64,000 bases of DNA. Source: Tetraselmis striata. Its lineage: Eukaryota > Chlorophyta > Chlorodendrophyceae > Chlorodendrales > Chlorodendraceae. The position numbers were made by a program, and so were the translations under genes. The stretch covers positions 1-64,000 of the forward strand of contig VCJN01000810.1 of assembly GCA_006384855.1 (NCBI GenBank), in the 5' to 3' direction. The notes below the pieces were generated by a model. That model was not told the origin of the DNA, did not search any database, and saw nothing but the letters and a program-made list of their open reading frames with translations. Of this stretch, positions 14,583 to 64,000 are shown one piece after another; the first letter of the stretch is position 1; every line of letters starts with the position of its first letter.

Positions 14583-15682
14583 AACCCTTGCCCTGCCTCC
14601 TGAACAAGTAACGCACCAGCAAGCCCTGTTCTCACATCCTGAAGATGGCACAGTAGTAGCTAGAGTCAGCCTGCCAGCCGACGTATAAACATACGCTGCG
14701 CTTCACCCTGCTCGGTGCTGGTTGCGACCATCCCCATGACGCTGCAGTAGGGGGGGGGGCGGGGGTCTGCAGGTCCTGGCAATATGGCTGCGCCGTAGCA
14801 ACTAATCATGATAGTCAGCTGGAGACATCAGCTACTTGCCTGTTGCAGGCTCTCGCAAGCACCAGCGGCGGCCAGGCTGTACCGCAAAGGATGGGTGCGA
14901 CGAGGCTGCCGCCAACCTCTGACGCTTTAAGGACTGAAGCCGCGACAAGTTAGCGCAGCCAGAGCAACGGTCCGGATAGTCACCGTCCCCCCCTGCGACT
15001 GAAGGATATATGTCAGGCAGTCTGAGGAGCCCAGCGAGGGTGACTTGTACATATTTCCCCAGGCGTGCTCTACACTCGGCCGCGCTAAAACAAGTCGTTG
15101 TCTTCCGACTTCCGGCATGGCAACCACATCACATGACAACGCCGCGACCGTACATGTGCGGCTGCTACGAATACGGGTTTAGGGTTTACATTACAAATTG
15201 ATTATCGGGCATGCTGCTAGCTCATGTAATTATATTATCGGGCATATCAGTTTGTAATGCAAGGATTGTCATGGGTCTACTTCTCATACAGCATCGTCAC
15301 CGTATCCCAGGAAACTGCTCTGCGGGTTACGATGACAAATGAATGACTCCAGCTGCGCGCCGGCACCGTAGGTCCCGGCACCAGTTGCGACTGAAATACA
15401 AGTGCAGGTAATGCGGGTAATTATTAGTTAATGTGCGGTAGGCGGGGCCTTTTAAAGTAGTTATTTTGACGTTTTAAAGCACTAATGGTACGATTAGACG
15501 CGCGCAATGAGATACCATGTTCCGACCGCCTCAGCATTTAATTTGTGAACAACAGGATACTGCTATTTTGATGGCAGTGTTTTAGACGGTGATCCAACAG
15601 TGTTGGAAATTCCGTCACTAACCTTCAATTAGTCTTGCGAAATGCTTCGGCAATTTGCTTGATGACTATAACGGAGCGTCGC

Positions 15683-15783
15683 CTACCCCGGGCTTTCCGT
15701 AACTGGATTGCTGCCTAGACGGCCGTCGTAGAGACGCTGCAAGGGTTTCACTGGTGCCAGTCCTGTCCCGGGGGCGAAAAAAA
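15683..15783 (+). repeat. Short interspersed repeat family B, copy 1
   Basis: About 100 nt, opening with GTCGCCTACCCCGGGCTTTC and closing with CAGTCCTGTCCCGGGGGCG followed by an A-run. Other copies: 36785-36872, 37196-37342, 37668-37735 (reverse) and 48165-48297 (reverse), plus 3' end fragments near 37066 and 32423. The fixed 3' end with an A-rich tail resembles a SINE. I could not find convincing pol III A and B boxes. Confidence 0.75.
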
Positions 15784-16234
15784 CATCAGGATACTGCTAT
15801 TAACACATTAAATGGGACAGATGCGCAAATATAATGTCACCCTACCTGTAGTCGCACATAAACAATTTATCATGCCGGGTGTGGACTTAGCACCTATACT
15901 AAAATCAGACTTTGTTATTAAGAAGCCTTCACTAAAATCAGACTTTTCCCGCCCGCCCTTCCGGGACAGAACAAAAACCAGACGACGACTATAATTTCGC
16001 TAAATAAATAGTAGGATTATCGGTTATCGACTTATCTCGGGGAGAGAGTCGATATGTCTTTAAATACCTAGATATCGCCGGGCGGAGAACGTGTATTTAG
16101 CGACTGTATGTTATTTGGCCGGGATATACCGGTAGTACTTACAGTAGTACTTACCGTGGGGGCCGAACGGTACAGCTGTACTACGGGTAATACGCAGCCC
16201 GCCAGCAGGAGCCCGCCCCCCACGCGGCATGTGA

Positions 16235-40363: not shown

Positions 40364-41399
40364 TGTGCACTCGGGTCGGCACCCAAACGTCATGTGTAAA
40401 GGCAGTCCGTGATATGTTGTTAGTGCGGGCCACGTAAGGGGCCCCGTGCACAAGTACTGCTAGCGGCTGGCGCCCATACTGGATCCTCATCAGCCAGCAC
40501 CGCCAAAATGTAGGTGGTTCTGCAGGATCCTGCAACGATGTTACGGCTCGAGGGCCAGCTGGGCCGCCATCGGGGCGACGCGAGGATACGAGTAAAGGGG
40601 ACTGTCCCGAGCGGTACGCTGTCGGACGGTCGTCTAAAGGTCTTGATTCCAGTTTGGGCGCCAGCCGCTATCAGAACCCATGCACAAGGACCCGTACGTA
40701 CGCGGCTCCCACAAACAATAGATCAGACTGACAGGGGAGGGGGGGGGGGGGGGGGGGTCCCGCGGCCTTCATGGTCCTCTGCACCCGTACCTGTGCGTCG
40801 CCGCCGAGGCACGACCGGCAGCCAGGAGTCCTCCCCTGCGGGACGCTGAGGGGCACACAGGGCAGCAAGACAAGTTAGAAAACTGCACAATCGCCAGCGC
40901 TCACTTGATCGGCACCTCGGATTGCGTGACGCACCAGCGCCCGCCGGCTTCCGCAAGCAGGCAGACGTGAAAGAGGACTATATAAGATTTTGAAGCAACT
41001 AAAAATTTGTCACGTGAAACTTGCACCAAGCTAATAACTACTGCTCAGAATACGTATCATCATCATTTCCAGTTTACTTATTAGCAAGTTACTTATACTC
41101 AGTACCAAGGCAAGGGGTTGTTAGCACTCTTCAGACTGCAGGCTGCAGAGCTCACTTCCGAGTACGTGGTGTGAGCAGGAGGAGTAAGGTAGGGAGTACT
41201 CTCTACTGGTACCCGTAATACCGACTACTGTTATGTACCGCGGGCACGTCATCAGCGTGAAGTGTTTGTACGAGACAGTCTGACGTAGTACCTACCAGGG
41301 CCCATGCCTGGGGTCATGCCTGGCGTGTCCTGGGTTTACCCGGTTGATGCATTAGCCCTTCGGGATTCGAATGAGGCAATGGTCTACGAGTTATGGCTC

Positions 41400-41482
41400 C
41401 GGGTCCAGACCTACGACTGCAGTTGGCGCAAGAGGTCAAGTGCTGGGGCGGCTTGGGCCGATGTCCCGGGGCGAACTTTACT
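41400..41482 (+). repeat. Dispersed repeat family C, copy 2
   Basis: Mate of 33477-33556 in opposite orientation. Blocks TACGACTGCAGTTGG, CAAGAGGTCAAGTGCTGG and CCGATGTCCCGGGGCGAA are shared. Confidence 0.8.
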
Positions 41483-42995
41483 TATAGCACCCGGATCAGA
41501 ACTGGCGTCGTATGCGGACAATAATAATATACGAAAACCGTACTCGTACCGGTACGGGTACGATACTAGTAGTACTACTCGTGGCGGCGCGCGCGTTCGT
41601 CGTCATCGTAGTAGCCGTAGCCGTAGCAGTAGCAGGACCTATATGTGCGATTGCACATTATTTTGTGCGCTCATCATCATATGTCCCTAGGGATACGGAT
41701 ATTAAATTATATATCTATCAGCAGCAGCAACTCGATGCACGAGTGCACGGTAGCAGGACAGGTAATCCTTACTCGCTGCTGCTTGGGCGTCGTTCGATCT
41801 TCGACCGGCGGGTTGGGACGAAGGGGACACAAGAAGGGGCAAACCTTCACACTGGAGAGGTGCTTCTTTCGAGGCGGTACTCCAGACTCTGTCTTCAACT
41901 GAATCGGCGGCTCCCCGTGTTCCTCGCTGCTAGATGACATAGTGAAGAGAGCTCGCGCAGCGGGCAGGGTGCAGTAAACCCAGCGAACGCTTGCGGGTGT
42001 GGTGGCGCGCTTTGCTCAAAGTTTTAAATGTTGGTCGCCGGTTAACACTCGCGGGCGAGGAGGTCCTGCAAAACAGCGCCCACAGGATGGCAAACTCAGG
42101 AAGAGAAAGCAGCAGCACCTCACATGGCTTGCCCTCAGAGCCGATAATTCTGAGACGGCAGAAAGACCCCATTAGCGGCGCACCGAAGGCAACAAACCGC
42201 CGCGGGCGACCCGGGCGGAATGGTGCCCTGTCACCATAGCCGAGGCGGAGGCCGTACAGCAACACGTCCATTCGTACATCATGCAGTTGCGCTACCAATA
42301 TCCTCGTCATCCTGTACCAGTTAAAATATATTGCGATTAAATAGAGACTTGTCCCAGGGACGGCGGTACCCTGTAGCGACCAGTCGCTGTATAAGTCGCT
42401 GGATTTCTGTGTGGATTTCTTGAACGTTGGGTAACATAGGATTTACATAGGATCCTAATAAATATCAGCACCAGCTACAACGCAAAACTGATGCTGAATG
42501 CTGAATATTCGCAAATATATTTATTCACATCATGTTCCGACCGGCACAGGATTGCTGAGCACCGGTAAGAATTTCCCCGTCGGCGGGCGAAATAATATCC
42601 GTATAACTGTATTCGCGACAGTACTTCTGCCGGTATAGTTGTACCATTCATCCTTAGCGATATTCTCGCTGCGCGCGGCGGCGACATGATCTGGAGATAA
42701 TTGCGATACAGGTACAGTACGCGTGGCGACGCCCACGGGCCGCTGGTCAGCACGTGGGATTTCCGTGGCGGGTGAACATTTAAGAGTTTTAGCAAGCCCC
42801 GTAAGAAAAGCGCAACGCGACGCCATGCTTTGCGCGGCAGCAGCACGGGGGAGCCGGGCGGCAGGACAGGATCTGGTGGCCGTAACGAGAAGGGAACGAA
42901 GGGCCTACTGCTGACCAAACGCAGAAGGGGTTGACAATGTGCTACTGGCATGTCAGGGATTGCAGGCGGGAGTGGCAACCGGCCGAGGTCGCCGC

Positions 42996-47439: not shown

Positions 47440-47745
47440 TTTCAAGGGAGGTAGCCAGGGATGATTAGCCAGAAAGTGCGCAGGCTTAGTTACACGAGAA
47501 GGGCGGGTACTTGCGGCAAAGAGCCACAAAGAGGGAGGGAGGGCGGGTTGTACAGGCAGGAGGCGAGCACAAAACTAAGAGAGTGGTCCAATCTAGCGGA
47601 CGATGATGGTTTTATAAGATTTGATGGGTACGGGATGACCGCCGTTCTCGCCGTAGTAGGCGGCACGCATAGTGCCGTACATCGGCTCTTGGTATAAAGC
47701 AACAGTGTTTTTGCACCCGTACTGGTGTCAGCACCTGCATACCCG
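47440..47745 (-). repeat. Solo LTR-like repeat of the tyrosine-recombinase element
   Basis: About 300 nt, closely matching 48373-48770 in the same orientation: GGGAGGTAGCCAGGGA, TAAGAGAGTGGTCCA, CTAGCGGACGATGATGG, GGCGGCACGCATAGTGCC, GTGTTTTTGCACCC and GCATACCC in order. Read on minus it carries a TTATAAAA box (47617-47610). No ORF1 or recombinase lies next to it, so it looks like a solo repeat left by recombination or by an older insertion. Confidence 0.8.
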
Positions 47746-48164: not shown

Positions 48165-48297
48165 GTTTTGTTCTCGCCCCCGGGACAGGACTGGCGACAG
48201 TGAAACCCTTATCGCTTGCAGCGTCTCTACCTATGACGGCCGTTCGGGCATCGATCCAACTACGGAATGAAGCCATGGGGTAGGCGACTCTCCGTCA
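48165..48297 (-). repeat. Short interspersed repeat family B, copy 5 (reverse)
   Basis: Full-length reverse copy from TTTGTTCTCGCCCCCGGGAC to GGGGTAGGCGAC, next to the LTR-like repeat of element copy A. Confidence 0.8.
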
Positions 48298-48372
48298 ACA
48301 AGCAAATTGCCGGAGCATTCTGCAAGACTAATTAATACAGGCCAGTGATGGAATTCCCGGCACTGTTGGATT

Positions 48373-48770
48373 GTTTCAAAGGGAGGTAGCCAGGGAAGAT
48401 TGGCCAAAAAGTGCGCATGCTTAGTTACACAGAATGAAAGGGCGGGGTACTTGCAGCAAAGAGCCACAAGGCGGGAGGGAGGTTGGATTTGTGCGGGCAT
48501 GCATGAGGCGAGCACAAAACTAAGAGAGTTGTCCAGTCTAGCGGACGATGATGGTTTTATAAGATTTGATGGGTACGTAATGACCGCCGTTCTCGCCGTA
48601 GTAGGCGGCACGCATAGTGCCGTACATCGGCTCTCAGTATAAGCACTAGTGCGTGCCAAAGCACCCGTGCTAAAGCAGCAGTGTTTTTGTAGCCGTACTG
48701 GTAACGGCACCCGCATACCCTAAGGGCAAGGGGACAAAAGAAACCCCAAGAACACAGTTCTAAACATTTC
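48373..48770 (-). repeat. 3' LTR-like repeat of element copy A
   Basis: Matches the solo repeat 47440-47745 over most of its length and the 5' repeat 51990-52265 over its TATA-proximal part. It contains TTATAAAA on minus (48562-48555). Its opening motif GGGAGGTAGCCAGGGAAGAT reappears, slightly changed, at about 48773-48800 between the repeat and the recombinase stop. Confidence 0.8.
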
Positions 48771-48833
48771 ATAGGGAGGTAGGCAGAGAAGATTAGCCAC
48801 CTCTGTCGTCTGTCCTGTGTCTTCAGTCCTCTG

Positions 48834-50420
48834 TCAAGACTGCGGATGGGGCGGGGTGGCTCCCGACGGGGCGAGGGTGCTGTCGAGAAGGCTGCGAAAA
48901 ACCATAGGGAGAGAGAGCCAGCCGAACAGAGGCGCGGCGGCGCGGGTAGGAAGCGTCGTCGGGTCGACGTAGTCGTTGAGTACTGCAGAATCGAGGGTCC
49001 AACCGCCCCAGTGGCGGATTTTATTCAGAGGCACGCCCGCCGCTGCATTTGCGCGAGACGCCCCGCCCGCAACGAATGCGAGGTCCACACGAATCCTTCG
49101 GTGGGGGGGGGGGGGGGGGGAGCGCGGGGGGATCGATTGATGTGGGCGACGGCCTGCGTGAGCCAGTCGCCGAGGGTGGAGGCGTTCCATGCGGGGCGAT
49201 GTAGTCATGTCGCTATGGAGCGCCCATAATCGGCCCGGTTGCTTGGCGGAGGGGGTTGCCCGGAACGCTGCGTCGCGGTAAGCGATGAAGCGGCGGAGAA
49301 GGGCTGTCCACGCGGGCACGGTAGTGGCAGGGATTGGGATTAGGGGCTTGAACCCGTTTCGACGCTTGCGATGTCCCCCTTCTCGCGGCTGACGTAGAGG
49401 GTGATGCTATGGGGGTCCACGGCCATGTCGCGGAGTCGGTAGGAGACGATGGACTCGCCACGGGAGTAAAACATAAATGTTGAGCATACCACGGCGCCCT
49501 CGCGGAGGATGGTGCGGTTGCCATGGGTGGTCATGGGAATAAGGTTAGCAAGGTTGTCAAGGATGTTGGTGATGACGTCACAGGGAAGGGGGGCACGGCG
49601 CAGCTCCTCGCTAGTCTTGAGCTGACGGATTTGAAGTGCCCGCTTCATGTCGCTGATGGCTGGGCGGCGGGTGTCCGGGGCGTCATCCCGACCGGTGTGA
49701 CGCAGGAAGGCGATCATGGCTGAGAGGAAGGGTAGTAGAGAGCCGGCATCGATAGTGCAGCGCTCTGCGATCCATGCGGGGTAGCAGACGTAGGTAGCCT
49801 CGGTGCAGTCCGGGGGGGGGGGGGGGGGGGGGTGCCTTCCTCGTCCAAGCAAAACTCGGCAAAGAGACGAATCTTGCCATCGTAGTTGGAGTAGCTGCTG
49901 ACTGTGAGCGAGGTAGTCAGCAGATCGAGCACCTTGGCTCCCCAGCCGTATGTGCCGTGGAGAGTCTCGATGCTACCTCGCATGATCTCGCTCCAGGGAG
50001 CCTTTGCTGCGGCGTCGGCGATGATGAAGTAGGTAGTTGTCTTCGTGGTGCGGCGGACACGCCGGAACGCACCATACGCCGCGGCCGGGTCTGAGGGTGG
50101 CGCTCGCCGAATCAGCGGCTGGGGTTGGCCGAATCAGGGGCGGCGCGAAGATGATGCCATGACGGTAAGGTACTGTAGCTGCTTACCTCGTGGCGAGCAT
50201 CGCGTGAGTACCGGGCTCGTCTAGCCGCATGCGAGAGGCCGCCGCGCTGACGGCGGTTGAAGAGGGTTAGCGTGGCAGGTCGGGGAGGCCGCGCCAAAAG
50301 GAGGGAGTCGGTGTAGACTCGTGATGTAGATGTTAAGGACAGGTTAGCGCCAAAGGGGTTGACCATGGAGAGGGTAAGGGAAGGGTGACGGGTAGCAAAG
50401 GAGGGTCAGTGGTGAGAGAG
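48834..50420 (-). pseudogene. Tyrosine recombinase (phage-integrase fold), copy A, frameshifted
   Basis: DNA strand-exchange enzyme of the mobile element. N-terminal core-binding segment: 'MRGSIETLHG', 'VLDLLTTSLTVSSYSNYDGK' and 'IRLFAEFCLDEEG' (49983-49835). Catalytic part: Arg I in 'FMFYSRGESIVSYRLRDM' (near 49465), the beta-hairpin Lys in 'YVSREKGD' (near 49380), the box HSLR in 'TSHSLRAG' (near 49055), then 'GGASRANAAAGVPLNKIRHW' and the nucleophile Tyr in 'AVLNDYVDP'. The frame is broken by a G21 tract (49812-49832), a G18 tract (49103-49120) and a small indel just after HSLRAG. The reading before 'MRGS' continues upstream as 'RRAPPSDPAAAYGAFRRVRR', which suggests a longer N-terminus. 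Confidence 0.85.
49812..49832. repeat. 21-nt G homopolymer disrupting the recombinase
   Basis: C21 on the sense strand. At the same place copy B has CATCTCCCCTTGGA (near 63592-63605). Confidence 0.9.
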
Positions 50421-50429
50421 TCCCGCTGA

Positions 50430-51916
50430 TGCCGACGACTCCGGTGCAACGTTACTTGGAAAGGGCGCGTCCGGAGGCGTGCCCTCGAAACGCGGGGGGG
50501 GGGGGGGGGGGGGGGGTCGGCACGGCGGAGCACCCCATCATTTCGGCCTTGTCGACTGAAAGGGGCCCAATCTTTGCCTTGCTCCTGCTAGAGTCCTTGG
50601 TGGCGTACTTAATTGCAGAGGCGGCTCGTGGCGCCACCGCTTCGCGCACCGGGCGCGTAGTCTTGAAGTTTTCGCGGCTGCCGCCGCCACCGTCCCGGTC
50701 GCGGTCGTTGCGCCAGAGGGCGCCGCCGAAGCGCTTGCGGGCGGTAATTTTCGCGGCGCTCGCGATGTTGGCGTCGTAGACGCGATCCTTATTGTAGAGC
50801 TCCAGTAGCTCGGAGAACTAAGGCGACCAGAGGTTCTTGATACCAGGGCGGAAGTAACGCTCCCGTACGACGTCGAGCGCGAAAGTGTCGCCGTCGTGCA
50901 TGCGACAGTATCAACAGAAGAGAGACTCAAAGACAAACAAAGGTGGTATGTAGTGTTGGTGGTGCAAAGGCGAGAGGCTTCAGTGTTTTGACGATACAAA
51001 GATATTGGGTTATCACAACGCTTCCCACATTGCAGCATTATACAGTACATATACCCGTAGTCACAGGTACACATTGTACTAAGCTAGTACTCACATGACA
51101 TTGTACTAACTCGTAGTATATCGTACTCGTATAATTGTCACATGCATCTGTGTGTCCCGGTACTTGTGGAGGTACGCCAGACGGAACCGATGGCCGTCGT
51201 CGATGGCCTCCATGTTGTAGATGATAGCCTCGAGCCGCTGCCCGAAGGCCGGAGTAATTCCCTCGGTGACGCATGCCGTCGCTAGCAGCTTACGCAACTC
51301 GGTGGTCGAGCCAGCGATGAAAGCCCGTTAGTTGCACGCGGCGTGGTTTTTTTTTTTTGCTGCCGGCTGGAGTCACGCGAGTATTACCAAGCATGTACTC
51401 GAGCACACGGTCGAGGGCGATGCTAAGGAAGAGCCCGGGGCGTCGCAGATTGTCGGGAGGCATCCCGTTCTCGAAACCTGGCTGAGCCGTAGCGATGGCT
51501 GGTTTCCAATTAAGGTAGTGTGGCTTCCTCGAAGGAGCGAAGGGCGCACAGACGTTCCGGTCCATACCACCGGCGCGGGACTCGTTCCCGCCCGGAATGG
51601 CGTCCTCTTCACCGGCGCCGTTGAGTCTTCACCGCGCGGCTGCCGGCGGCATAGGAGTCTCTTGGGTGGTGAAGAACGTGGAGAGCTGCTCTTGGATGAA
51701 TTGCTACAATCTTATATCTTCCGCCTTACGATGCGCCACCTCGATGGGGTCAAGGTCAGTAACTGTGGTTCCGACGCCCTCGACAGCCGACGCCTTGCCG
51801 GCGTCGACCATCTTGGGGGCGGTAGGTGAGCCGCGGCATGTCATCGCAAAGGGGTCGTCGGGAAGAGAGACTCGTGGTGAAGAAAGAAAGGAAGAGCCTC
51901 GGCTTGAGCTGGTCAT
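50430..51916 (-). pseudogene. Gag-like ORF1 of element copy A, broken
   Basis: It starts at ATG 51916 ('MTSSSRGSSFLSS', then 'PKMVDAGKASAVEGVGTTVT' and 'DLDPIEVAHRKAEDIRL'). Blocks shared with copy B follow in shifting frames: 'FENGMPPDNLRRPGLF', 'ALDRVLEYMLGN', 'KLLATACVTEGITPAFGQRL' and 'ANIASAAK'. It is interrupted by stops, a T-run (51350-51358) and a G23 tract (50494-50516). It has no known domain. By position it is analogous to the gag-like ORF1 of DIRS-type elements (inference). Confidence 0.7.
50494..50516. repeat. 23-nt G homopolymer in ORF1
   Basis: On the sense strand a C23 run. The same site in copy B (near 62938-62953) reads CCCCCGGCAGGTGCG. Confidence 0.9.
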
Positions 51917-51989
51917 GTTATAACAACGCGAGCGGAGGGTGGAAGGTTTAGTTCCGTTTCCGAAGGCCTGAGCACTTTGCATGGTACGA

Positions 51990-52265
51990 AACCGCGGGTT
52001 AGTGTTGTGCAGGCATGATGCCATCACAAAACTAAGAGAGTGGTCCAGTCTAGCGGACGATGGTGGCTTTATACGATTTGATGGGTACGGGGCGGCTGAC
52101 CGCCGTTTTCGCCGTGGGCGGCATGCAAGGTGCCGTACACTGGCTTGTCAGTGCTTAAGGCACTAGTGTCAAAGCACCAGTGCTAGAGCACAGTACTGGT
52201 GTCGGCCCCCGCATACCCTAGGTGCAGGGAGGGAAAAGGAAACCCCAAGGACACAGCTCTAAACA
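51990..52265 (-). repeat. 5' LTR-like repeat of element copy A
   Basis: Shared with 61515-61815 (opposite strand) and 48373-48770: CTTGGGGTTTCC, AGGGTATGCGGG, TGTACGGCAC, CATCGTCCGCTAGACTGGAC and TTAGTTTTGTG on minus. Its TATA-like box has decayed (TATAAAG). It lies about 75 nt upstream of the ORF1 start codon. Confidence 0.8.
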
Positions 52266-52783: not shown

Positions 52784-55700
52784 ATGTCGGCGTGGTGCCT
52801 CTGCGTGTGGCGCTCCGGGCGGGGCGCGAAGGAGCTGGCGGACGCCTCCCTCCCCGAGCTTCTTGCCAGCGGTGGTAGCGTCTGCGGACAGCCTGCGGTG
52901 GACTGGGCCGCCGCGACTGTGGCAACCCCACTGCTCCGCACGACCGATCCCAGGCTATGCTGGGTCAGCTTCCCGAGCCACAAGGTGCGTGCGGCGAGTG
53001 CCGCCGAGCGATCGCACCCGCGGTCGGCGGACGCCTTAGGCCGTTATGTCTCGGCCTCTTCTGACCTCTGCCCGTGCTCCGACAGCCTGTCAGCCTGGCG
53101 AGTTGCTGCTCGTGAATACCCACATACTGCGCCTGAAATGGATTATATCGACGCGGCAGGAGCAGCCGATCAGGACCTCGACATGTTGCTATTGTAGGCT
53201 GCAATCGCGAATAGGCGCAAGTACTCGTTTGTATATTCCCATATGTGACGAGACCCAGTGTGATATGCTGACACGCTGGCAACCCTTAACATGTATCTCC
53301 TAGCAGCATCGAGATAGAAGATAGGAGATAGGCAGTCCATTCTATTCAATATCATCACTATTTCTTTAGTTGTGGTTGCGCCTTTCGTTCATCTTCTCTT
53401 CTGCTGCTGCTGCTGCTCAATTGCAGTTGCAGGATCGTACCGGTAGTAATAGACGAACCATTACGTCCATTGTAACGAGCCACACTTGCGGCGAACCCCG
53501 GGCGAACCATTTTCTACTAATCTCCTGACGCTGTTTATCTTTCAGTATTCACCCCAATCCAACCCTGCCGTGTCCGCCGGTCGTGCTGGCCCGCCAATGA
53601 GCGCTGGCGCCCGCGGTTGCAGATCGTCACGCAAGCTGCGGAGCGATGTGCGCTTCTGCACGCCGCGATTCAGGTAGGAGGGCGCCGTCTCCGCGCCTGT
53701 TCCCCGCGCTTACATACCCACGCCGCAGGACTGCCGCTGTCTGCCGGTCTCCGCTGTGCGTACAAATGTTTCCCTATGCTGGCGCCAGACTGTAGGACGA
53801 CTACCCCGGCGACTGCATGCCCTTTTTTCCCGGGATATACTGATGGTCCAAGCCGTGAGCGATCCTAAGACAAGGTTGCATATGGTGGCTGACGTATGCA
53901 GCACGTTCATACGAGTGCCTCCGGGAGGGGCGCATCTCACGTGATTCCACTCGGGCGATGGGTGGACATCCCGCGTATCGCTCTTCTGGCTGTTCCTGAC
54001 GGCGCCCCGGCCACGCACCAAACGGGCAGGTGTGGGCCACCGCCGACAGCATCCAGGACGCCGCTGACGTCGCGACTAGCCGCGTGTCTGAATGGGACCG
54101 GGTCAGCGGGCTTCCTCCGCTGGCCACGTGGGACATCGAAGGCTTTGCTATTTCGGTTTGCCGGCAGTCTGGAGCGGCAGAGGGGAAGAGGCAGCAGCGA
54201 GACACCAAACGGCAGGCCCCCGTCACCGCCACTGCCATCCCCCCCCTCCGCCTCGTAGGCATTGCCGCCGGGGTCGCTGAGTCCGCAAAGCCCCGATCCA
54301 CCCCGCAGGCAAGTTGACGCCTTCCGGCGCGCTGGCGTGGGAACCCATCCCGCAGCAGGCAGCCCGACGCTCGCGGTGGTTGCGCTGTGGGACGGCGCAG
54401 CGCAGGTGGGCGCCTGGATGGGGCCGGTGCTAGGCTGGGGCTGCGCCGTCAAGCGCAAGTGGGGCCACGAGTTCGCAACGCCCACGAGCATGGGGCCGAC
54501 AGAGGCGGTGCTGACCGCTGGCCTCGCCGGCGCCGCGCCCGGCAAGCTCACGCTCGACCCCTGCTGCGGCGGCGGGGCGCTGCTGGCGGGCGCCGCCTGC
54601 CTGGGGGCGGACACGCTTTGCGGCAGCGACGTGGATGCCTCCGGCTTCCAGGTGAGCTGCGCCCCTCCCTTCCTGCCTGCGCGCGGCGTCCCTCGCCCCT
54701 GGCGGTGAGTCCATCTCTTATGCGCGGAGGCTGACGTGTGTGCCGCTTCAGCTCCGCAGATGGGGCCATGCCGCGAGCGGCATGACACCAGGTCCGCCCA
54801 GCCCTGGCCGGGCCTTCCCCACCAACATACCCAATCCTGACCCATTGATAGAATCCCGGCAAGACGGATGCGCCAAGTGCCCGCTGTGGAACATGCCAGA
54901 GGGCAGCACCAAGTACAACGACTTCGAGAAAATCGACGATGCATTCGTCTGGGAATGCCGCCCCATGCGCCCCTTCAGCGTGTTCTCAGTGAGAACCAGC
55001 GCCAAGTGGGGGAAGGGGGGGTATACTAGAATACTTGAACGCAATTGGTTGCCCGATGGCGAGCGCTAGCATCCCTGTACCTGTAGACAATAGCCTGAAG
55101 CACGACATATGTCATCAGGCTATCTGCCAGCTTTTCCGGGCAGTGGCTCCGGTATCTGAAACGAGGCAGCAGCCATCTGAGCCAGCCTCACCCGCCGCCC
55201 CTTGACCGGCGACAGGCGGGACAGGCACGCAAGAGCCGGGGCTGGTGATCACGAGCGCGTTCCATCCCGCGTGGAGGTAAGGTCACCCACCATCAACCTT
55301 GCGCACCAGCCCCCGCCCCGGCGCCAGCACCAGCCCCAGCACTAGGCACCCACTGTATCTAAGAAAGTGCAAGCGACAACTCAAAGTGACCCCTTGATAT
55401 GTGTCCCTGTTGACGCTCATCGCATGTCAGTCATCAATCACCCCCCCTCCCCTACCCCGCTATCCCTGACTCAAAACACTGCTTCTGTGCTGCATGAAAA
55501 TGCCCCATGCCGGCGCCTTACGACCTCCTTGAATATATACTTGCAATCAGGGGGGAGGGGGGCGTGAGCTTGTGGACCGTCGATGTCGCGCTGACGTTCG
55601 AACTCCTACCGACCCGCAGGTCCGGCACATTCGACATCATCGTATGCGATCCGCCCTACGGGGTGCGGGCCGCCATCGTGGGCGGCTCCCCGCAGGAGGG

Positions 55701-58700
55701 CGACGCAGCACAGGTGCGGCGACAGCTGCGCTCGCTGCCAGCTGCACCGATCCGTCTGCTACCGCGAGCATCAGTATACCGCGCCATTTAACTGGATCCG
55801 CTAGTAGTCGGAGTAAGTTGGAGTATCTGTGCAATTTTCGTGGTGTATGCTGATAGTTTCCTAGATGGGTATACTTTTCATCTCTTGGCGGTTTTGTTAT
55901 TTCATTTTTTGGGGGGGAAGAGGGGGGGGGGGGGTAGTGATCGGCATGGCTCTTGTACGGGTGCGGACACGGGTCATAAGAACACTTCGAATTCGACCCT
56001 GCGCCTGCCAGAGGTCAAGTCTAGACGAAGCTGTATCGGAATTACAGGGAATGTTCTGATAGGTTGCATGCAAGCGCAATTTGAGCCTTACATTGAGAGT
56101 TCCTATAGGTGCGTCGGCACCCATATGCTGTATCATACATAAATACATACTATATATGTGTTATTGGGGGATACCGTGCAATTCAATACGGCTTGCGGGG
56201 CCAAAAGCTTATGAGTTGTGTTGCACCTTTGCGTCGGAATATTCGTGATGTATTCCTGGTGTATACTGACTAATTTCTCCGTTTTAGAAGTTTTTCCTCT
56301 TCGTGAAGGGAGGGGGTGTCAAAAACGTTTATCTGCGGACCGTTTGCGTTTGTTCGATTGGAACGCCGTGTTTATTGCTTTGGACCGCAAAGAGGGAGGA
56401 GGTCTATCAAGCTTAAAGTAAATTAGAACCCACCGCGAAAGTTGCACGTTTGGTTAATATCCGAATATGCGCTGTACAATGCACCTGGGTTTGCGGGTTA
56501 TTATAGAATGATATAAATTGTTTTGCAGCAACGAGTCGGAAGACCTGTGTGGTATTCGTGGTGTCTTCTGAGAAATTTCAAGATAAATGATACAGTTTCT
56601 CCTCTCGTCGCGCCAGAAGGGGGGGGAGGGGGGGCTTCAAAAACGATAATACACCACGGACCCACAGTGTGGTTCCGATAACAACAAAACAGCTCATCGT
56701 TATTGTTTGTTGGGCCTGCAAACTCCGTTCAGTGCTTGTGTATCAGTTGAAGCAGAACTCCGATTTCAAAGAGCACACTCAAAGCTCGATTGGTTGACCT
56801 CACATGCGCGGCTGCCTTGCTCCGTGTGCCAGGCGGGCGCTCCCGCGGCGCCGCCCCGAGGCGACTTCCAGGCAGAGGTACTGGTGAAGCTGCTCCGCGC
56901 CGCCGCGGCGCTGCTGACGCCCGGCGGCCGGCTGGTGAGCTGGATGCCGCTGGACGGCGCGCGGCCGGTCCGGTGCCCGGCGACGGAAGGGGCGCGCTGC
57001 GGCGCGTGCACGGAGTGCCGCGTGCGGTCCGCCGCGGCGGGGACCGGCCTGGCACTGTGCTGCCTCGTCCGGGAGGCGAGGGCGAGCGGCCTGCAGCGCG
57101 CCCTGGCGGTGTTCCAGATGGCAGGCGGCGGCGGCGGCGGCGGCGCGGGGCGGCATGCGGAAGAGACCCGGCCGATGGCCTTCGCCCCTGTCTGCGTCGC
57201 CGACGAAGGGGGTGGCTCCGCGCAGCTGGGCCCCGCGCCGGCGCTGTCCTGCCAGCCGCCAGGCCGCAGCCCCCTCGCGCTGCCGGGCAGCCTGCCGAGC
57301 CGGCTGCATGCCTCCGCGGCGCACCACCGGCGCGAGAGCTACGCGGCCAGCAAGAGCGCCGCCAGCGGCTCGGCGCTGGACGTGTGGCGCGCGGCGTGGG
57401 TGGGCGACACCGCGGCGGTGGAGGGCTACCTGGCCGCGGGCGGGGCGGCGGACCAGCGCGACGCTAGGTGCGCCCACGCACGCACGCACCCCCCCCCCCC
57501 CCCCCCCCCCGCAGGACCATATAATATGCAGGCAATGTCGTGTCGCCCGGTCACTTCCACTTTGAGGGAGAAAGGGGGGGGGGGGGGGGGGGGGGGCGTA
57601 AACAGCCCTTAACAACCGGCTACCGCAATATTTTGCTGGGACGGCTGTCAACTGTTGTTTTCAGACTCCCTTCACAGAGGTCGCCATGCAGCAGTTTCTC
57701 GTTTGCAACGTAACATGCCTCACACCTGCAGATAGAGTAGTTTCTTGTTTGAAATGAGGGCCTCACTTCCCGGTGTATCCCTGGCTGGCCACTCACCCTG
57801 CAACCGCACTCCGTGCATCGGCCTCGCGGTGGCGGCGTATTCCCGCTGCAGGGGGCAGACGCCGCTGCAGCACGCCTGCGGCTACGGGCGCCTGCCGGTG
57901 TGCCGGGCTCTCCTGGCGGCGGGCGCGGATGCATCCGCTGCGGAGGACCCCAAGGCGATGACGCCACTCCACCGGGCCGCCACCTGGGGGCACCACGCCA
58001 TCGTGCAGGTAGCTTGCATTCTCTCAGGGTACGAAGTTTTTGTATTTCTATTCCATTCCATTCCGTTCTATTCTATTCTATTCTATTCTATTCTATTCCA
58101 TTCCATTCCATTCCATTCCATTCTATTATACTCTATTCTATTCCATTCTATTTTATTCTATCCTATTCCATTCCATTATATTATATTATATTCCATTCCA
58201 TTCTATTCTATTCTATTATACTCTATTCCATTTTATTCTATCGTATTCTACATTCTGCTCTTCTTCTCTCTTATTCTCTCTACCGCTAAAGTTCCATCGC
58301 TACAGTCTGCTTGGACACGTTAGTAAGGATTATGTGATCATTCTCGTGTCTACACGATGTGATTATAGGGCATTACGTTTTAATCATTTCCACATAAAGG
58401 ATATGGAAAGATAAGGATAACTATAAGAATAAGGATAGTGGCGCTATGTAATACCGACTATTATTTATATATACGCATTGAATACGCGTTTACTGACAGT
58501 ATTATACAAGGATTATAATATCCTGATGTAATATTATACATGGCCTAATAACGCGTAATCGGACTCGTAAACATAGTCTTATCGCTGCGCTTTGGCCCGC
58601 ATTCCTGTATCGCTATCTAATTTCAAACAATGCTCATGTACGTTTTCTTCACAAATCGGAAATACAAAATGTACTCAATGCTTTCCGAAATCGATTCACA

Positions 58701-61292: not shown

Positions 61293-61514
61293 AGACACTC
61301 AAGCTGCGCAGTGGTGTCGCTGCGGGGTAGCTCTTACTACATACACCATAGGATGACAGAGTGGACATGACTGCGGCTTTGGAATGATGCTTAATACTCA
61401 GTCTTGGGCTTGTGACATATTGCGATATTACCACCACAATCTTGGGCTTGTGACATGCTGTGATACTGCGGAGCCACTGTACAATACCGTGTAGATAACC
61501 AACAATTTTGTTTA
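61293..61514. other. Spacer between the TRM11-ankyrin stop and element copy B
   Basis: About 220 nt holding the 3' UTR of the TRM11-ankyrin gene. A short duplication is present: CTTGGGCTTGTGACAT occurs twice (near 61403 and 61441). Confidence 0.6.
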
Positions 61515-61815
61515 AAGCTTTGTACTTGGGGTTTCCTTTTTCCTCCTGCCCAGAGGGTATGCGGGTGCCGACACTCGTACTTGTGCTTTAGCACGGTTGC
61601 AAAAACACTGGTGCTTAAGCACATGTGCTTTGGCACTCACTAGTGCACTAGTACCGACAGAAGATGTACGGCACTCTGCGTGCCGCCTACTACGGCGAGA
61701 ACGGCGGTTACCCAATACCCATCAAATCTTATAAACCCATCATCGTCCGCTAGACTGGACCGCTTTCTTAGTTTTGTGCTGGCCTCCTGCCCTCACAACA
61801 GAAATTCGCGGTTTC
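61515..61815 (+). repeat. 5' LTR-like repeat of element copy B
   Basis: Matches the reverse complement of 51990-52265 and of 48373-48770. It includes TGTACTTGGGGTTTCC, GGGTATGCGGGTGCCGACAC, a run of TAGTGCACTAGT-like palindromes, GTGCCGCCTACTACGGCGAG, TATAAAC (61730-61736) and CATCGTCCGCTAGACTGGAC. Confidence 0.8.
61730..61736 (+). promoter_or_regulatory. TATA-like box of element copy B
   Basis: CTTATAAAC here, CTTATAAAA in the repeats at 47.6 and 48.6 kb (minus) and CGTATAAAG in copy A's 5' repeat, always followed 11-15 nt later by CATCGTCCGCTAGAC or the same site with one change. The conserved position, about 140-150 nt before ORF1, suggests the element's promoter. Confidence 0.5.
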
Positions 61816-61878: not shown

Positions 61879-62988
61879 ATGACGAGCTCAAGCCGAGGCT
61901 CTTCCTTTCTTTCTTCTCCATGCGGCTCTCTCACCGACGACCCCTGGACGGGCCGTGGCTCATCTACCGCCTCCAAGATGGTCGACGTCGGCAAGGCGGC
62001 TGTTGCGGGCGTCGGAACAACAGTTACTGACCACGACCCCATCGAGGCGGCGCGTCGTAAGGCGCAAGATACAAGATTGAAGCAACTCATCTAGGAGCAG
62101 CTCTCCAAGTTCTTCACCACACAAGAGAATCCTATGTTGCCGGTGAAGAGGACGCCATTCAGGGCGGGAACGAGTCCCGCGCCCGTGGTATGGACCAGAA
62201 CGTCCGTGCGCCCTTCGCCCCTTCGAGCGAACCACACTACCTTAATCGGAAACTCGCCCTCGCTACAGCTCTGCCAAGTTTCGAGAACGGGAGGCCTCCC
62301 GACATTCTGCGACGCCCCGGGCTCTTCCCCATAGCCCTCGACCATGTGCTCGAGTATATGCTTAGTAACCCTCGCCTTCAACCGGCAGCAGAAGAATACT
62401 ACCACGCCGCGTGCAACGGGGCTTTCTTCGCTGGCTCGACCATCGAGCTGCGTAAGCTGCTGGCGGCGGCATGCGTCACCGAGGGAATTACCCATGCCTT
62501 CGGGCAACGGCTCGAGGCCATCGTCCACAGCATGGAGCCCATCGATGATGGCCATCGGTTCCGTCAGGCGTACCTCCGCAAGCATTGATGCACCACGGCG
62601 GCAGTTTCGCGCTCGACGATGTACGGGAGCGCTACTTCCGCCCTAGTACCGAGCGAGAACCTAGGGTGGCCCGATTCCTCCGAGCTACTGGAGCTCTACA
62701 TGGACGGCGTCTACAACGCCAACATCGCGAGTGCCGCGAAAACCACTGCCCGCCAGCGCTTCAGCGGCGCCCTCCGGCGCAATGACCGCGACCGGGACAG
62801 TGGCGGCGGCACCCGCGAACACTTTAAGACTACGCGCCCGGCGTCACGACCCATCATTGCAAAGGACGCCACCAAGGACTCTGGTTTGAGCCCCCTCCGG
62901 TCGACGCGGCCGAATGATGGGGTGCTCCGCCGTACCGACCCCCGGCAGGTGCGTTTCGAGGGCATGTCTCCGGGTGCGCCTTTTAGGT
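61879..62988 (+). pseudogene. Gag-like ORF1 of element copy B, broken
   Basis: From ATG 61879 ('MTSSSRGSSFLSSPCGSLTD') to a TAG near 62094. It then continues in other frames at 62190-62588 ('FENGRPPDILRRPGLFP', 'FAGSTIELRKLLAAACVTEG', 'DDGHRFRQAYLRKH') and 62619-62988 ('YMDGVYNANIASAAKTTARQ', 'RFSGALRRNDRDRD'). At least two frame changes and one stop separate these blocks, so the copy is probably inactive. No known domain was recognised. Confidence 0.7.
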
Positions 62989-62992
62989 AACG

Positions 62993-64000
62993 ATGCACTG
63001 GAGTCATCGGCATGAGCGGGACTCTCTCACCACTGACCCTCCTACGCGAGCCGACATCCTCCCTTCACCCTCGTCAGGATCAACCCCTATGGCGCTACCC
63101 TGTCCTTCAACATCTATATCACGAGTCTACACCGACTCCCTCTTTCTAGCGCGGCCTCCCCGACCTGCCATGCGAACCCTCTTCAACCGCCGTCATCGCG
63201 GCGGCCTCTCGCAGGCAGCTAGACGAGCCCGGTACGCACACAACGCTCGCTACGAGGTCAGCGGCTACAGTACCCTGCCGTCATGGCGTCAGCTTCGTGC
63301 CGCCCCTGATTCGGCCAACACCAACCGACGAGAGCCACCCTCAGACCCGGCCGTTGCGTACGATGCGTTCCGGCGTGTCCGCCGCACCGACACCTACCTA
63401 CTTTATCGCCGGCGCCGCAGCAAAGCCTCCCTACAGCAAGCTCATGCGAGGTAGCATCGAGACTCTCTACGGCACAGACGACTGGGGCGCCAATGTGCTC
63501 GATTTGCTGACTACCTCGCTCACGGCCAGCACCTACTCCAACTACGAAGGCAAGATTCGTCTCTTCGCCGAGTTTTGCATCGACGAGGAAGGCATCTCCC
63601 CTTGGACTGTCCCGAGGTTATCGGCGTCCGCTACCCCGCCTGGATATCGCGGAGCGTTGCACCATCAGTGCCGGCTCTCTGCAACCCTACCTCTCAGCCA
63701 TCAACACCTTCCTGCGTCAAACCGGTCGAGATGACGCCCCGGCCACCGGCCCAGCCATCAGCGACATGAAGCGGGCACTTCAAATCCGTCAGCTCAAGAC
63801 TAGCGAGGAGCTGCGACACGCCCCCCTTCCCTGTGACGTCATCACAAACATCCTTGACGACCTTGCTAACCTTATTCCCATGACCACCCAAGCCATGGCT
63901 ACGGAACCATCCTCCGCGAGGGCGCCGTGGTATGCTCAACATTTATGTTTTACTCCCGTGGCGAGTCCAGCGTCTCCTACCGACTCCGCGACATGGCCGT
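62993..64000 (+). pseudogene. Tyrosine recombinase, copy B, partial and frameshifted
   Basis: The reading starts near 62993 and gives 'SRVYTDSLFLARPPRPAMRT' and 'LFNRRHRGGLSQAARRARYA', the N-terminal part also seen in copy A. A frame change near 63390 leads to 'MRGSIETLYG', 'VLDLLTTSLTASTYSNYEGK' and 'IRLFAEFCIDEEG' (63447-63590). A second change leads to 'ISDMKRALQIRQLKTSEELR' and 'LPCDVITNILDDLANLIPMT'; more changes occur before the window end near the Arg I region. It lacks the C-runs that break copy A at 49812 and 50494. Confidence 0.8.

Follow-up and report, generated by a model that had tools for sequence, protein, structure and literature searches.

A family of tyrosine-recombinase elements with split direct repeats, and no reverse transcriptase in the copies examined, in the green alga Tetraselmis striata

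What kind of element combines a tyrosine recombinase (YR) with long direct repeats and no recognisable reverse transcriptase (RT)? The question is raised by two related copies, here called copy A and copy B, in the first 64,000 nt of contig VCJN01000810.1 of Tetraselmis striata (assembly GCA_006384855.1), the whole of which we call the window. A preliminary description, made from the letters alone, offered two answers: the copies might represent a recombinase element of a new class, or they might be non-autonomous and derive from a DIRS or Ngaro element. The second is partly supported, as a non-autonomous, RT-less relative. The ends of the family, arranged as A1-[open reading frames (ORFs)]-B1A2B2, are of the Ngaro/PAT/VIPER kind and tie it to these elements and away from Cryptons and long terminal repeat (LTR) elements, so that no wholly new class has to be invoked. 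The explanation we consider probable, with moderate confidence, is that of an RT-less family of YR retroelements which has retained its own ORF1 and recombinase and would receive RT in trans from YR retrotransposons of the same genome. It is preferred because it accounts for repeats that are kept in concert at the two ends of each copy.

The family was searched for in the assembly of its own genome (224.1 Mb, 2,903 contigs), where the match lists take in the best-scored candidates and the counts are lower bounds. The whole of copy A gave at least 91 matches (best 40 of 1,616 first-look candidates scored), the YR piece at least 141 (best 125 of 4,436), the ORF1 piece at least 162, of which 150 are listed (best 149 of 3,161), and the A2-B2 repeat at least 42 (best 40 of 666). 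The 44-nt junction of B1 with A2 was found with up to 3 mismatches at 72 places genome-wide, as compared to 0 for the reversed control. These junctions, together with the 91 matches to copy A, exclude a chance origin of the repeat arrangement.

Direct repeats do stand at the ends of copy A, as had been described, with 76% identity over 280 aligned positions (52265-~52004 against 48766-~48489). Calling them LTR-like was not correct, as the 5' end consists of A1 and the 3' end of B1-A2-spacer-B2. Copy A is read from the minus strand, which puts its 5' end at 52265, in the order A1, ORF1, YR, B1, A2, spacer, B2. The same order recurs in many copies, and the ends of the family are thus split direct repeats, A1-[ORF1-YR]-B1-A2-B2. 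Most of 20 element starts read TGTTTAG, L009 being an exception. A set of 20 element ends, which includes that of a separate A2-B2 piece, mostly reads ...CCTCCCTTTGAAA or ...CCTCCCTTGAAA. Of the 26 copies that have an A2, 19 carry immediately ahead of it 32 nt with at least 75% identity to B. Where both B repeats are readable (20 copies) their mean identity is 0.77, against 0.40 for a shifted control, and the best identity to B among 20 5' flanks is 0.44, so the 5' flanks are unlike B. When the 20 rows were read by eye, B1 and B2 agreed in all nine copies that could be read cleanly, with TTGAAA in four and TTTGAAA in five; two of these nine, L006 and L010, have common flanks.

This anatomy bears directly on the reading as an ordinary LTR element or as unrelated neighbouring insertions, which would account for the direct repeats as first read and for nothing else, and which we hold to be very improbable. 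An LTR element would have two end LTRs and a short target duplication; here the 3' end is B1-A2-spacer-B2, no target duplication was seen and a YR is present. When 50 element loci were searched with a Gypsy-like ORF, matches were confined to the outer ends of two of them, L012 and L028. The possibility that the terminal repeats are unrelated neighbours is excluded, because their order recurs in many copies, with the B1-A2 junction at 72 places, and because they are kept in concert.

The window contains no recognisable RT, RNase H or methylase, in agreement with the preliminary description: tblastn with queries from the same genome gave no match there, and Pfam searches of selected pieces were likewise blank. 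The argument that this is not a deletion in one copy also holds. Copy B, on the plus strand from 61509, is collinear with copy A. Pairing the 141 YR matches with the 150 listed ORF1 matches on the same strand and within 12 kb gave 56 elements, and in 48 of those listed the starts of the two genes are 938-1360 nt apart (median of all 56, 1199). This common spacing extends to elements whose YR is no more than about 47-53% identical to the query, and a deletion confined to a single copy cannot therefore be its source. The remaining eight have longer spacings of 1588-2903 nt. Three of these, from among the four with the longest gaps, were fetched and contained unrelated insertions at differing points, with no RT-looking frame. 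Longer members with an RT between ORF1 and YR, which the preliminary description had left as a possibility, were thus not found in three of the eight longer elements or at the junctions examined. Among the 72 junctions, a listed YR or element body lies up to 1.5 kb upstream in 31, ORF1 only in 8 and neither in 33. From the last group 16 were fetched; 14 have a family YR upstream, and the near-identical L070 and L079 have non-coding repeats instead. On contigs C1988, C2857 and C540 the ORF1 match is only about 300 nt from the B1-A2 junction, and these are apparently YR-deleted derivatives.

An RT of a suitable kind is available in the genome. A search with the Dam methylase family (122 matches) led to L065 (G000:C103:24700-31200), an element with 121-bp direct repeats and three open frames: a Gag-like one of 449 aa, an RT-RNase H-methylase one of 1331 aa (Dam E 1e-11; RVT_1 E 1.8e-6, narrowly short of the curated cut-off) and a YR-like one of 367 aa. 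The last was read as a YR, its sole Pfam match being a weak integrase N-terminal domain (E 0.079), and its protein has no significant similarity to the family YR (blastp E 0.2). The L065 RT recurs at seven further places with 96-98% identity over at least 318 aa, which suggests that the L065 family was recently active. L065 is thus a possible RT helper. A second RNase H-methylase type was also seen, consisting of many young-looking ORFs of about 700 aa (often 696 aa) with near-equal scores, for example at C2875:20958-21338.

The RT part of L065, which is of the DIRS/PAT type, had no tblastn match in the 50 element loci. The lists of 124 YR places and 97 places of DIRS/PAT-type RT include no pair within 10 kb of each other, and for 145 listed RNase H-methylase places there is one such case, on C860, at 6.5 kb downstream; these distance lists exclude second fragments of the same copies. 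The copies examined contain neither the ORF2 of Ngaro (RT and RNase H) nor the RT-RNase H-methylase polyprotein of PAT and DIRS1, for which L065 was recovered as a positive control. A methylase had no Pfam match on the pieces of family copies searched and, apart from one fused fragment, was absent from the 50 loci. A genome-wide RVT_1 search (150 matches, best 150 of 3,001 candidates scored) was set aside as uninformative, as it returned mostly long ORFs with near-equal scores, which were called Gypsy-like by reading only.

The fused fragment lies in L075 (G000:C996:83100-83990), the sole match among the 50 loci to the RNase H-methylase part of L065 (33% identity over 132 aa). It ends beside a family YR end and a B1-A2 junction, and L075 was considered as an RT element with the family ends. 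As a DNA query it matched 40 places, only two of which, C996 itself and the near-identical C1773 (114688-115578), match throughout; the other 38 are confined to the RT-type part and end at or before base 473. L075 was therefore rejected as a subfamily and read as one fusion with its duplicate. The fusion may record template switching, and a nested insertion or deletion explains it equally well.

The evidence for the way the family replicates comes from the repeats themselves. Over 22 copies, A1 and A2 are 0.875 identical within a copy as compared to 0.846 between copies, with 0.839 for A1-A1 and 0.854 for A2-A2, an excess not reached in any of 10,000 permutations. When L010, L014 and L016 were dropped, each sharing its flanks with another copy, the remaining 19 copies gave 0.872 within and 0.842 between (A1-A1 0.832, A2-A2 0.850), again with 0 of 20,000 permutations. 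In a tree of 38 A repeats, with a median end branch of 0.065 changes per site, the A1s and A2s are intermixed and fall into two subfamilies, X and Y; placing all A1s in a single clade is rejected (log-likelihood 139.8 worse, p-AU 7e-73). The within-copy excess holds in subfamily X alone (11 copies, 0 of 20,000 permutations). The two repeats belong to one subfamily in 18 of 19 copies. The ends are thus kept in concert, as would be expected from retro-type replication.

The exception is copy A itself, with an A1 of type X and an A2 of type Y, and it is a mosaic of the two subfamilies. At 26 sites that separate X from Y it has X at the 7 scorable ones of the first 9, then Y at 14, and X at the final site, while a scan for mosaics in 200-nt windows gave no signal for copy A. 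Other mosaics in the 26-site scan are L024 (Y-X-Y) and the mixed L006/L010, L026, L027, L029 and L030. Such mosaics fit template switching and also recombination between copies.

The four bases before A1 are RTTW-like, with A/G at -4 in 15 of 17, T at -3 in 13, T at -2 in 11 and T/A at -1 in 14 of 17, against a background of 0.25 for T, and RTTW-like target sites are thus favoured. No target duplication was visible by eye in 14 copies with both ends. In a search for empty sites with 11 joined-flank sequences (best 40 of 3,424 candidates scored), the site of L020 was uninterrupted at two places, C2214 and C2845 (79%), and that of L009 in 11 places of a dispersed repeat (79-82%); these sites are known as match coordinates, and none is visible as letters in the fetched loci. 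For the remaining nine, nothing was recovered beyond the halves themselves or near-identical copies of a half. Insertion at the two sites appears to be precise.

These observations would also fit a recombinase transposon that moves as DNA only, excised as a circle through its B-A junctions and reinserted with no RNA step, in effect a Crypton-like element with Ngaro-like ends, whose split repeats would be repeats of the recombination site. Such an element would need no RT, and none was found in the copies examined; it would use its own YR with the HxxR...Y motif; the B1-A2 junction resembles the B2-A1 junction expected of a circle; and paralogous sites are uninterrupted with no visible target duplication. 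We nevertheless think it unlikely. Movement as DNA alone does not by itself explain why A1 and A2 are more alike within a copy than between copies, and why B1 and B2 agree on TTGAAA or TTTGAAA in all nine clean copies. Described Cryptons, moreover, are without long direct repeats (PMC3212892).

The condition of the two genes is relevant to a different alternative. The YR was recognised by its family profile, built from six sequences, which matches Cre over the last ~50 residues with the HxxR...Y end (E 0.002). A higher-ranked profile match, to a designed protein, covers 26 residues only and was judged spurious. The best single Pfam match of a sister-copy YR was PF00589 (E 0.026, below the cut-off), and two PHROGs families matched the YR, one unknown (E 0.0026) and one of integrases (E 0.014). 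Of the alignment rows, 23 of 26 have the His of HxxR and 19 the Arg; the Trp of GGW is present in all 27 and the Tyr in 27 of 28. A predicted YR with HxxR and a catalytic Tyr thus lies upstream of B1, as it does in Ngaro. The Phage_integrase profile had 7 matches over the genome and none at a listed family place, this search being too insensitive for this YR. This profile matched strongly (E 6e-32) at G000:C1804:118938-119390, within a 410-aa frame that is at no listed family place. Among viral contigs there were 45 pattern matches to the family, none of which was confirmed. ORF1 is probably Gag-like, a label taken from its position alone.

No YR is open throughout in any of 30 long loci, the longest open stretch being 285 aa of the 351-aa reference, and ORF1 gave no significant signal in a test of third-position bias in shared against singleton changes (p 0.52 and 0.73). 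Both results, together with the three further-deleted places described above, favour the view that the family arose by plain internal deletion from an RT-bearing element and was amplified wholly in trans, with ORF1 and YR as passive relics of the parent that were not needed. We judge this unlikely to much the same degree as movement by DNA only. The spacing of ORF1 and YR is constant down to about 47-53% YR identity, stop-free YR pieces of 319 aa exist in C893 (the query) and C632, and no RT parent with the family ends was seen among the junctions examined. The shared changes in YR also have a weak third-position bias in the same test (p 0.031 over all columns, 0.096 without CpG columns).

Under the explanation that we prefer, with RT supplied in trans, transcription would begin within A1 and end within B2. 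This RNA would be copied by the RT of an RT-bearing YR retrotransposon of the same genome. With the internal B1-A2 junction as template, the missing ends could then be restored and the product closed into a DNA circle, which would have a B2-A1 junction resembling B1-A2. The circle would be inserted by the element's own recombinase at RTTW-like sites, with no target duplication.

Looking at the results that weigh against this explanation is useful as well. No RNA, cDNA or circle was seen, and the junctions examined yielded no RT element that shares these ends. In subfamily Y by itself the within-copy excess falls short of significance (7 copies, 1,455 of 20,000 permutations), the repeat tree has no support for 25 of its 35 inner branches, and a clear B1 is missing at the tested place in 7 of the 26 copies. 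Gene conversion could likewise equalise A1 and A2. Pfam and PHROGs gave no match for the ORF1 pieces of sister copies, and no homology to Gag was recognised there. Pairwise comparisons gave a third-position excess of 1.2-1.4, but in the cleaner test of shared against singleton changes only YR with all columns reached significance, and purifying selection on ORF1 and YR has weak support from these sequences.

The family can be compared to several known systems. Ngaro elements are described as A1-[ORFs]-B1A2B2, with solo AB repeats also occurring (PMC8547959), and have no methylase (PMC4157794). The family resembles them in its split direct repeats, in having ORF1 first and YR last with HxxR and Tyr, and in the absence of a methylase among the pieces and loci searched; it differs in that the copies examined are without ORF2 and measure about 3.6 kb, as compared to about 6 kb. 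PAT elements are known in algae (PMC4157794). Split direct repeats are shared with PAT and TOC elements, and the PAT/DIRS-like L065 is present in the same genome, but PAT elements carry RT and methylase. TOC1 of Chlamydomonas is an RT-less algal element with split repeats; it is not known to have a YR gene. In VIPER, A1 at the 5' end and B1A2B2 at the 3' end have been likened to Ngaro and PAT-like elements (PMC6681497). VIPER and TATE insert without target duplication, and SIRE is a truncated non-autonomous VIPER (PMC6681497, PMC12278014). The family has the same order of repeats and no target duplication was seen, but VIPER and TATE have RT and RNase H, and SIRE retains only the VIPER ends whereas the family retains ORF1 and YR. 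Cryptons have a YR without RT and are proposed to move as DNA circles, with direct repeats of 4 or 6 bp or none (PMC3212892); the family shares the YR and the lack of RT in the copies examined, and differs in its long split repeats kept in concert. In the copies examined it thus lacks the RT of Ngaro, PAT and VIPER and has the long repeats that are absent from Cryptons, and for these reasons we class it with the YR retroelements as an RT-less variant, outside all four of these groups. In the literature outside subscription journals and Repbase, as far as its accessible portions go, no RT-less family with ORF1, YR and split repeats was found.

The features of both copies in the window are given in Table 1. 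The ORF1 and YR frames reported for copy A are present, but its YR gene is not full, contrary to the preliminary description, since it is spread over three frames, and its ORF1 is broken as well. With a YR in three frames and none fully open among the 30 long loci, both window copies read as dead members of a large family. The private insertion in the ORF1 of copy A is covered by no other listed match to copy A and is missing from the other loci compared.

Table 1. Positions of the family's features in the window
Feature	Position	Strand	Remarks
Copy A, A1 (5' repeat)	52004..52265 (start approximate: ~52004)	-	begins TGTTTAGAGCTGTG; subfamily X type
Copy A, ORF1, broken	50542..51916	-	from the MTSSSRGSS motif through the last base of the ORF1 match; Gag-like by position only
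Copy A, private insertion of ~241 nt within ORF1	about 50902-51142	-	copy A query 1124-1364
Copy A, YR frame, broken	48834..50366	-	three frames
Copy A, YR motifs	SHSLR 49067-49081; HWGGW 48999-49013; NDYVDPT 48957-48977	-	
Copy A, B1	48767..48799	-	abuts A2 directly
Copy A, A2	48489..48766 (~48489)	-	subfamily Y type
Copy A, A2-to-B2 spacer, ~82 nt	48407..48488	-	single occurrence within the element
Copy A, B2 (3' end of element)	48374..48406	-	ends CTCCCTTTGAAA
Separate incomplete A2-B2 piece, 3' of copy A	47440..47744	-	
Copy B, A1	61509..61790	+	
Copy B, ORF1 frame, broken	61879..62900	+	from the MTSSSRGSS motif through the last base of the ORF1 match
Copy B, YR frame, broken	63125..64000	+	leaves the window; contig match stops at 65019

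Dispersed repeats were seen at 48167-48371, 15564-15789 and 41325-41483, and these also occur inside L070 and L079; the first directly adjoins the 3' end of copy A. Host gene pieces at 54262-55791 and 57745-58323 correspond to a UPF0020-type methyltransferase domain (below the Pfam cut-off), which we take to be TRM11-like, and to ankyrin repeats. A tandem array with units of 10/15 bp lies at 58001-58304.

A proposal reported in PMC6681497, which cites Poulter and Butler 2015, derives YR retroelements from the union of a Crypton-like element with RT/RNase H of the Gypsy type. A tentative and rather doubtful suggestion is that the family is a self-sufficient circle transposon at the DNA level that needs no RT, an intermediate form from Crypton to Ngaro with split repeats and a Gag-like ORF. 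In a less radical version it may be a long-lived satellite lineage with its own ORF1 and recombinase that has always taken its RT from another family. If a large family combines split repeats of the retro type with a YR of its own but has no RT, then either the supply of RT in trans can last for a long time or split repeats can function without RT. Either outcome would make the replication model of YR elements directly testable.

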